From: Methanoregula sp.
Lineage (GTDB): Archaea; Halobacteriota; Methanomicrobia; Methanomicrobiales; Methanospirillaceae
Length of the DNA stretch: 40,423 nt
NCBI GenBank assembly: GCA_022711635.1
Contig: JAKLEQ010000006.1
Span: 1-40,423, forward strand
Direction of reading: 5' to 3'
The notes beneath the pieces are model-generated. The model did no database searches. It worked only from the letters and a program-made list of their open reading frames with translations, and was not told where the DNA came from. Within the stretch, counting starts at the first letter, position 1; every line of letters starts with the position of its first letter. The translations under genes were made by a program, and so were the position numbers. Shown piece after piece: positions 9,984 to 27,513 of the stretch.

Positions 9984-10316
<333 letters not shown>

Positions 10317-11522: not shown

Positions 11523-11560
11523 GATTTTCTCCTTTTTTATCCACTTCAGATTTCAGGGAC

Positions 11561-11624
11561 ATACTCCCATGTTCGATAAACTCCTCCGGAGGAAAAATCC
11601 GGCCGGCAGTTTCCATGGGAGTAT
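11561..11624 (-). ncRNA. Nested stem-loop in the amt 5' leader
   Basis: Three co-linear helices nest here. P1 is an 11-bp perfect inverted repeat (atactcccatg 11561-11571 with catgggagtat 11614-11624). P2 is aaact 11578-11582 with agttt 11608-11612. P3 is ccgga 11586-11590 with tccgg 11598-11602, closing a 7-base loop. The element lies between the predicted transcription start (about 11645) and the amt SD, so it would be transcribed in a leader of about 120 bases. A structured regulatory leader is inferred from geometry; no known riboswitch class was recognised. Confidence 0.6.
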
Positions 11625-11648
11625 TCTGTGGCGATCCAAGTCGCTGGA

Positions 11649-11664
11649 AGGAAGTTGTCTTCCT
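11649..11664. promoter_or_regulatory. NrpR-type operator of amt-glnK
   Basis: The sequence AGGAAG-TTGT-CTTCCT is a perfect inverted repeat containing GGAA-N6-TTCC (11650-11663), the published operator consensus of the euryarchaeal nitrogen repressor NrpR. It lies between the TATA box (11668-11675) and the expected start site of the minus-strand amt transcript, where repressor binding would block initiation. nrpR itself is not in this window. Confidence 0.8.
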
Positions 11665-11667
11665 ACA

Positions 11668-11675
11668 CTTATAAG
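11668..11675 (-). promoter_or_regulatory. TATA box of amt-glnK
   Basis: CTTATAAG, a palindromic TATA box, sits about 150 bases upstream of amt and 5 bases from the operator. Transcription would begin near 11645 on the minus strand. Confidence 0.65.
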
Positions 11676-11812: not shown

Positions 11813-13456
11813 ATGAGGCTGACTCCCATCGCCCGTGCGCTCTTGAAGAGCCGCTACTTCCTCCCGGACGAGACATTTGCTGATCTCTGTTCACGGGTAG
11901 CGGGAAGCGTTGATACACCGGGGGCTGGACAATTCCGTGCTGCAATTGAGGACCTCCTGTTCATCCCCAATTCCCCGACCCTCATGAATGCCGGGACGAC
12001 GTCCGGCCAGCTCTCGGCATGTTTTGTCCTCCCGGTCGAAGACTCGCTGCAGGGGATCTTCTCGACCCTCGCAGCGATGGCACAGATCCACCAGAGCGGG
12101 GGAGGGACCGGTTTTTCGTTCAGCCGCCTCCGTCCTGCCGGCGACCCGGTCTCGACGACCTGCGGCGCTGCGAGTGGCCCCCTCCCGTTCATCCGGGTCT
12201 TCGATGAAGCCACGAATGCGGTAAAGCAGGGAGGAAAACGACGGGGGGCAAACATGGCGGTGCTTGACAGTTCCCACCCGGACATCGCATCGTTCATCAC
12301 CGCGAAGAACCAGGGCGGGCTCTCAAACTTCAACCTCTCGGTCGGGTTCGATGCACATTTTTTCCAGTGCCTCGACCGGGGACAATCGTACGACCTCATC
12401 AACCCAAGGGACGGTTCGGTCAGGGCATCCATCGACCCGGAGGATCTCTGGGATACGCTCTGTTCTGCTGCCTGGCAGTCGGGAGATCCCGGTGCCCTCT
12501 TCCTGGATACGATCAATGCGAAAAACACGGTGCCCGGCCTAGGCCGCATCGAAGCGACGAACCCCTGCGGCGAGCAGCCGCTCCTCCCGTTCGAGAGCTG
12601 CAATCTCGGGAGCATCAACCTCTGCCGATGCATCGTCCGGGGAGAACTCGATGATGAACGGCTGAGGGATACCGCACGCCTTGGCGTACAGTTTCTCGAT
12701 GCCGTAATCGATGTCAACAGGTTCCCGCTGCCGCAGATACGGGACATGACGCTGCAGACCCGGAAGATCGGCCTTGGCATTCTCGGGCTTGCGGATGCAC
12801 TCATTGCGCAGGGTATCCCATACGAATCAGACGAGGCCCTCCGTTTTGCCGGCCGGACAATGGAGATGATCGCGCGGGAGGCACGGGACACGTCACGGGA
12901 ACTGGGAGAAGAGAAAGGATCGTTTCCGGCAATAGACCGGAGCATTTTTACCGGCCCGATGCGGAATGCCACCACGACAACCATTGCCCCGACGGGATCC
13001 CTCCACATCATTGCGGGCACGAGCAGCGGGATCGAACCGGTCTTCGCCCTTGCCGGGACCCGGAGGATCGGGGCGACCCGGGTAGAACAGGTCCACCCGC
13101 TCTTAAAAAGATACCTTGCCCACCGCCGGCACCGCCATGATATCCTGGCGCTGGTAAAGCGGACCGGCTCGCTCCAGACCGCCCCTGTTGCGGACGAGGT
13201 ACGGGATCTCTTCAGGACCGCGACCGAGATCTCTCCCGAACACCACGTCCGCATGCAGGCAGTAGTCCAGGACCATGTCGACAATGCCGTCTCAAAGACG
13301 GTCAACCTTCCCGAAAAAACGGATGCCCGGGAGATATCCCGGCTCTTCCTGCTCGCCCGATCGCTCGGGTGCAAGGGCATAACGGTGTACCGGGTTAACT
13401 GCCGCCCGGACCAGGTCCTTGTCCGGGGATGCGAGATGTGCCGGGTCGATTCGTGA
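11813..13456 (+). CDS. nrdJ: Class II (B12-dependent) ribonucleotide reductase
   Basis: This 547-residue enzyme makes deoxyribonucleotides from ribonucleotides using adenosylcobalamin as radical source. Active-site elements are all visible: FIPNSPTLMNAG near 50-61, Cys70 (SACFVLP), SGGGTGFSFSRLRP, the radical-site NPCGEQ (Asn250, Cys252, Glu254), and Cys263 in ESCNLGSINL, which pairs with Cys70 during turnover. A C-terminal GCEMC (Cys540/Cys543) can serve as the shuttle dithiol. No N-terminal ATP-cone is present and the protein is short for the family, so allosteric activity control by ATP/dATP is probably absent. The start at 11813 agrees with a TATA box 27-32 bases upstream (leaderless). 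It is divergent from amt. Confidence 0.94.
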   Translation: MRLTPIARALLKSRYFLPDETFADLCSRVAGSVDTPGAGQFRAAIEDLLFIPNSPTLMNAGTTSGQLSACFVLPVEDSLQGIFSTLAAMAQIHQSGGGTGFSFSRLRPAGDPVSTTCGAASGPLPFIRVFDEATNAVKQGGKRRGANMAVLDSSHPDIASFITAKNQGGLSNFNLSVGFDAHFFQCLDRGQSYDLINPRDGSVRASIDPEDLWDTLCSAAWQSGDPGALFLDTINAKNTVPGLGRIEATNPCGEQPLLPFESCNLGSINLCRCIVRGELDDERLRDTARLGVQFLDAVIDVNRFPLPQIRDMTLQTRKIGLGILGLADALIAQGIPYESDEALRFAGRTMEMIAREARDTSRELGEEKGSFPAIDRSIFTGPMRNATTTTIAPTGSLHIIAGTSSGIEPVFALAGTRRIGATRVEQVHPLLKRYLAHRRHRHDILALVKRTGSLQTAPVADEVRDLFRTATEISPEHHVRMQAVVQDHVDNAVSKTVNLPEKTDAREISRLFLLARSLGCKGITVYRVNCRPDQVLVRGCEMCRVDS

Positions 13457-27096: not shown

Positions 27097-27513
27097 ATGG
27101 CGCGCAAGGCACAACTTTTACGGAAGTCCGGCGGGAAAGAAAAATCCCGGAACCCCGGGAAGGAGACGGGAAAACAACGGGCGGTACCCTCTTCCCGCCG
27201 GAAAACCCTGCCCGCCCTGCCTGACTCCCGCCACGAGTGCCTTATTATCGGGAGCGAGGGGTCCTGCGAGGACTGGCAGGAGATCCTTGCAGACTACCCG
27301 ATGATCGATTCCGTACAGCGGGAGGACTTCCCGGAGCATGGCGCCAGTTTTGTCTACCTGGCCCATTTCTACCGTACCGCGGATATGGCGAAGGAGAACA
27401 CCTGCGCGCAGAAGCAGTTCCGGCAGTTCTTCCAATCGATCGGGTACACGTTCGATTCCGCGGGAACGTTCAAGTCCCGGTGGTTCGAGGGAATCGGTGT
27501 CCGTACCGGCTGA
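27097..27513 (+). CDS. Hypothetical protein with basic N-terminal tail
   Basis: 138 residues. The first 45 are Lys/Arg rich (SGGKEKSRNPGKETGKQR) and probably disordered. The remaining 90 form a compact domain with HECLIIGSEGSCEDWQEIL and a Cys/Phe-rich end. The start is ATG 27097, preceded by a very AT-rich promoter (27050-27068). A nucleic-acid-binding role is suggested only by the basic tail. No family is recognised. Confidence 0.65.
   Translation: MARKAQLLRKSGGKEKSRNPGKETGKQRAVPSSRRKTLPALPDSRHECLIIGSEGSCEDWQEILADYPMIDSVQREDFPEHGASFVYLAHFYRTADMAKENTCAQKQFRQFFQSIGYTFDSAGTFKSRWFEGIGVRTG

Follow-up and report, generated by a model that had tools for sequence, protein, structure and literature searches.

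The amt-glnK locus and its promoter

The stretch of DNA analyzed here (the window) comprises 40,423 nucleotides of a Methanoregula sp. genome (contig JAKLEQ010000006.1) and contains an ammonium transporter gene, amt, followed by a gene for a PII-family regulator, glnK (Table 1). The position of the TATA-like box puts the predicted start of amt transcription near 11645, and a TATA-like box occupies the same place, ahead of the operator, in most related amt promoters. Counted from this predicted start, the leader is about 120 nt long and contains a hairpin, followed by the Shine-Dalgarno sequence, which is largely unpaired in the predicted leader fold, and the ATG.

The motif GGAA-N6-TTCC next to the TATA-like box, which has no other exact match within the 40-kb window, is the operator consensus of NrpR and is present at the glnK-amtB operon of Methanococcus maripaludis (PMC2723118). 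It immediately follows the TATA box in most of the recovered Methanomicrobiales amt promoters, spanning most genera of the order, and the NrpR domain (PF01995) was detected in all 8 of the 8 genomes of the genus examined, with an E value of 1.1e-89 in the genome to which the window belongs. Judging from these sequences, NrpR control of amt1 is likely and ordinary, and amt is a probable member of the NrpR regulon across most genera of the order.

Table 1. Coordinates of the features of the amt-glnK locus in the window
Feature	Position	Strand	Evidence and remarks
glnK, PII-family regulator, directly after amt	9984..10313	(-)	closest to P-II family models (E 5e-36), with scores under their equivalog cut-offs
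amt, ammonium transporter, 398 aa	10326..11522	(-)	TIGR00836 match of 457.6 bits, exceeding the cut-off
Shine-Dalgarno AAGGAG of amt, outside the hairpin	11529..11534	(-)	sequence
Whole leader hairpin, between amt promoter and start codon	11561..11624	(-)	inverted-repeat search and leader fold
Outer 11-bp perfect arms	11561-11571 with 11614-11624	(-)	sequence not conserved; pairing conserved as outer stem
Middle helix AAACU/AGUUU	11608-11612 with 11578-11582	(-)	leader fold; inner part of the covarying outer stem
Apical core CCGGA-UUUUUCC-UCCGG	11586-11602 (stem 11586-11590 with 11598-11602)	(-)	leader fold and comparison
GGAA-N6-TTCC, NrpR-type operator, after the TATA box and ahead of the predicted start	11650..11663	(-)	consensus from PMC2723118
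TATA-like box CTTATAAG of the amt promoter	11668..11675	(-)	sequence

A three-helix hairpin in the amt leader

A first-pass annotation of the window had proposed a structured amt-glnK leader between the predicted start and the amt Shine-Dalgarno sequence, built of three nested helices of 11, 5 and 5 bp at 11561-11624. The repeat search and the leader fold together recovered all three helices and placed the hairpin in this interval, on the minus strand. The accompanying argument, that an 11-bp repeat is unlikely by chance, is borne out for the leader, where an inverted repeat with perfect arms of 11 bp or more and a spacer of 3-60 arose in 33 of 20,000 dinucleotide shuffles, but not for the 40-kb window, where 2 such repeats were observed against 1.05 expected; the repeat is unusual for a leader and not for the window as a whole. 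The second of the two window repeats, the only one besides that of the leader, lies at 27127 and 27192. The leader folds with a z score of -1.95 on the mRNA strand, compared with -3.5 on the opposite strand. The single window sequence by itself would not convince, and the real evidence is comparative.

A similarity search located the leader DNA only once in its own genome, and a tandem or mobile repeat was rejected on that ground. The scan of the window against Rfam 15 yielded no family above the gathering score, and the searched literature, mostly free of subscription papers, held no description of this element or of any other structured cis-regulatory RNA for an archaeal ammonium transporter, in agreement with the initial statement that no described RNA element was known for archaeal amt.

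A conserved core in Methanoregula-type genera

The amt upstream regions were taken from 108 genomes of the same family and from further named genomes. Within these regions, a 17-nt apical core was identified in 59 copies preceding amt genes; its bearers belong to two Methanoregula-type genera, namely, the window's genus and a large Methanoregula genus, and include Methanoregula sp. PtaU1.Bin051, UBA247, UBA471 and OWC_0058. The core, with the family consensus CCGGA-YUUNNNA-UCCGG, sits atop an outer stem of free sequence, 63-193 nt from the amt start codon, and all copies are in the sense orientation relative to amt (58:0). The information content of the stem columns is 1.3-2.0 bits compared with about 0.1 in the flanks, the exception in the flanks being a conserved A two bases past the core. 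The filter used to collect the copies demanded GGA or AGA, the loop UU, and UC, so that the invariance of those letters is partly built in; the consensus was unchanged in a looser first pass and in a pattern-free alignment. The asymmetric loop has a fixed length of 7 nt, its positions 4-6 vary freely, and 18 different loops were found. The 11-bp helix to which the first-pass annotation had drawn attention shows no sequence conservation among relatives and is the least conserved part of the hairpin; conservation lies instead in the inner 5-bp stem with its loop.

A covariance model was built from 33 leaders and searched against the 108 family genomes, where it matched solely amt leaders down to an E value of 1.1e-5 per genome; the window hairpin is matched at 11564-11624 with 30.1 bits (E 3.3e-6). 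Matches away from amt start near E 1e-5 to 1e-4 and fall in coding or unrelated places, and a wider regulon beyond amt was accordingly rejected. When 232 genomes of the order were searched, the model matched amt leaders of the two genera alone, and its best match outside them (E 1.2e-5) lay in an unrelated place. The element, as sampled by these genomes, is lineage-restricted and confined to Methanoregula-type genera. Its absence from relatives with a conserved amt gene, which had been named beforehand as evidence against it, holds outside the two genera, in that other Methanomicrobiales genera have amt with leaders devoid of the element, but not within them. Some Methanoregula amt genes lack the core (for example, loci L099, L101, L264 and L270-L273).

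Several other amt leaders (loci L231 and L233 of Methanomicrobium, and L236, L096, L102 and L254) fold with z scores of -4 to -5.4 relative to shuffles, with about -5 in Methanomicrobium and -4.4 in a Methanospirillaceae genome, and their sequences are unrelated; all except L254, which has a variant of the core, come from other genera. Across the order, amt leaders may commonly be structured, each lineage having elements of its own. A separate observation is a short upstream ORF that begins AUG-CAR (Met-Gln) and is present in about 17 Methanoregula amt1 leaders some 26-34 nt before the start codon; several of these ORFs end at or beside the amt start, and they might be due to chance or might represent a glutamine-codon leader peptide.

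Comparative evidence for RNA structure

Conservation of the outer stem was assessed with a swap test, in which the core was forced to fold and the 5' flank was paired either with its own 3' flank or with the flank from another species. For 42 copies whose flanks were under 60% similar, own flanks yielded -19.8 kcal/mol and swapped flanks -15.7 kcal/mol (Wilcoxon, 1e-6; permutation, 0 of 20,000), and the effect was gone when the center was shifted by 15 to 75 nt. Across all 59 copies, the mean number of outer-stem pairs was 13.9 with own and 8.8 with swapped flanks. In a model-fitted alignment of 59 model matches, including a few that were weak or fell outside amt leaders, 70 cells were changed on both sides compared with 43.7 in shuffles, and the covariation score was 0.195 compared with 0.120 in shuffles, with the maximum at the true register. 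Because relatedness inflates the shuffle control of the covariation count, it is the swap test with shifted centers that carries the weight. RNAalifold applied to alignments detects the 5-bp core alone, missing the outer stem because its register shifts from species to species.

The search for compensatory changes in relatives that the first-pass annotation had advised gave a positive answer: pairing is kept in the swap test, and covariation is in register. On these alignments, the pairing of the outer stem is maintained by covariation while its sequence drifts, and we consider it very probable that this is a genuine, conserved RNA element. The strand test comparing G-U with A-C was neutral, and therefore we infer the RNA strand from position, orientation and loop asymmetry.

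A second copy between glnA and amt2

The same hairpin was found between glnA and amt2 in many of these genomes, including the genome of the window (contig C1), where the order is glnA, hairpin, amt2, glnK (locus L300); GlnA was named by its sequence and not by a family scan. One Methanoregula locus (L303) joins both settings in the order glnA, hairpin, amt2, TATA box and operator, hairpin, amt1, glnK. The motif GGAA-N6-TTCC was not found in most of the amt2 gaps, and in most cases, the operator is recognizable at amt1 only. In many copies of the glnA-amt2 gap, a stretch of A-runs and T-runs follows the glnA stop codon; this AT-rich stretch ahead of the amt2 hairpin might serve either as a promoter or as a terminator. 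The link of the hairpin to amt in both settings is consistent with an element of the amt message.

Candidate functions of the hairpin

Protein recognition is favored here because the paired stem and the A after it are conserved while the loop is partly variable. To the reading that the hairpin is a post-transcriptional cis-element, most likely protein-binding, that would control the translation or stability of amt mRNA made from an NrpR-controlled promoter, we assign an about even chance. NrpR, bound at GGAA-N6-TTCC, would gate the transcription of amt1; on top of this, the hairpin would add a second, post-transcriptional and amt-specific control, whereby a trans-acting factor, most likely a protein, would recognize the apical stem, the loop and the internal loop and, once bound, would alter the translation or stability of the amt message. 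A fixed paired stem that is closed by a partly variable loop and stands on a stem free in sequence marks a protein-binding hairpin akin to the iron-responsive element (IRE) more than a small RNA (sRNA) target or an aptamer, and the amt hairpin has the architecture expected of that class, its apical part being fixed and its lower stem covarying. Against this reading as a whole stand the neutral G-U test, the Methanoregula amt genes and the other genera that lack the core, and the amt2 copy, which could be transcribed from a promoter of its own or lie behind a terminator. Two internal pairings were also considered and set aside: pairing of the core loop with the Shine-Dalgarno sequence seemed good in the window's genus but fails against swapped sequences, and a test for loop partners in the rest of the leader gave no support either.

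A nitrogen-regulated sRNA could pair with the hairpin loop and thereby stabilize or repress the amt mRNA, in line with the UU retained in the exposed loop and with the sRNA control of nitrogen mRNAs known in a methanogen, Methanosarcina mazei, where sRNA154 stabilizes the nifH, glnK1 and glnA1 mRNAs (PMC11549558). Pairing in trans, however, predicts the reverse of the observed pattern, in which loop positions 4-6 are free and the paired stem is most fixed, and no partner RNA is known from this lineage, making such a target unlikely. That the hairpin passively protects or spaces the message, with no regulatory partner, would fit the free sequence of the outer stem and the strong unrelated structures in the amt leaders of other genera but leaves the near-invariant 17-nt core and the fixed 7-nt loop unexplained, and we regard it as rather unlikely. 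A riboswitch, in which the hairpin and the internal loop would bind a nitrogen metabolite, for example, glutamine, and switch translation or RNA stability, is suggested by the association with amt and the glnA-amt2 gap and by the conserved core with the conserved A in the internal loop; the element is, however, small and simple for an aptamer, neither a second structure nor Shine-Dalgarno masking was found in the leader, and Rfam, which includes the bacterial glnA and Downstream-peptide families, has no match in the window, so that this function, too, appears quite unlikely. Finally, a second repressor site in the transcribed region, bound as DNA by NrpR or another dimer, is improbable: the half-sites are palindromic with fixed spacing, the G-U test was neutral, and two operators are indicated for M. 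maripaludis nif by the title of a reference cited in PMC2723118, but the core reads CCGGA-N7-TCCGG in all copies, without GGAA-N6-TTCC and with a spacing unlike it, the asymmetric spacer and the 58:0 orientation are not predicted for a dimer site, the covarying outer stem has no role in one, and the distance to the start codon ranges from 63 to 193 nt.

The protein-bound cis hairpin, if correct, suggests dual control of methanogen ammonium uptake, by NrpR at the promoter and by the RNA hairpin on the message, and makes post-transcriptional nitrogen control directly testable via the hairpin. The element is compact, covarying, tied to one gene and located beside both paralogues of amt. Its nearly fixed tip, together with the pairing that its stem has kept in about 40 dissimilar relatives, points to an RNA element, not described before, that would control the uptake of ammonium. 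Few structured cis-regulatory RNAs are known in archaea.

Resemblance to anticodon arms

The core pattern search also picked up two tRNAs, tRNA-Leu(UAA), with CCGGA-CUUAAGA-UCCGG, in many of these genomes and, less often, tRNA-Gln(UUG), in a few, with the tRNA identities assigned by ARAGORN at four Leu loci (L280, L281, L282 and L299) and one Gln locus (L288). The anticodon arms of these two tRNAs have the same CCGGA/UCCGG stem as the amt core, which likewise combines a 5-bp stem with a 7-nt loop and has Y32 and U33 in 59 of the 59 copies (U33 being required by the filter) and A38 in 53 of the 59, the window copy having C at position 38; U34 is retained in the leader loop as well. Position 37 is C in 27 copies, A in 20 and U in 12, and positions 35-36 are variable, so a purine at 37 and a defined anticodon are not kept. 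No tRNA was detected by ARAGORN in the tested amt leaders; elsewhere in the window, it reported a 93-nt tRNA-Cys (12542-12634, minus strand), antisense in a B12-dependent ribonucleotide reductase gene and probably a false positive.

The resemblance may be a coincidence of stable 5+7 hairpins or true mimicry. It would be a long shot that the hairpin in both settings, the amt leader and the glnA-amt2 gap, is a decoy anticodon arm, copying tRNA-Leu(UAA) or tRNA-Gln(UUG) and read by a tRNA-binding protein (a synthetase, amidotransferase or modification enzyme), in analogy to the thrS operator of Escherichia coli; if true, the decoy arm would couple archaeal ammonium uptake to tRNA charging or the glutamine state.

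Comparison with known regulatory systems

The glutamine riboswitches of the glnA and Downstream-peptide families form structured leaders on nitrogen genes, among them ammonium transporter genes (PMC2864571), and the amt hairpin resembles them in this respect; they are bacterial, have another structure, and lack an Rfam match in the window. With sRNA154 of M. mazei, the likeness is post-transcriptional nitrogen control in a methanogen, but sRNA154 is a trans-encoded RNA, unlike the cis hairpin of the amt leader. The NrpR system of M. maripaludis (glnK-amtB, nif and glnA) is matched by the operator consensus at the amt promoter and by the NrpR domain in the genomes; that operator acts on DNA at the promoter, whereas the hairpin described here is a separate leader element.

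The operator of Escherichia coli thrS is an anticodon-arm mimic bound by ThrRS. The amt hairpin is similarly a leader hairpin that resembles an anticodon arm, its core equaling tRNA-Leu(UAA) at all constrained positions, but it has neither a fixed anticodon nor purine 37, and no synthetase gene lies downstream. The IRE is a protein-binding mRNA hairpin. The amt hairpin differs from it in sequence, in the loop and in its archaeal host, and the likeness, which is one of architecture alone, comprises a short fixed upper stem and loop, an internal loop or bulge, a lower stem of free sequence, and a place in the mRNA leader of a transport or storage gene.
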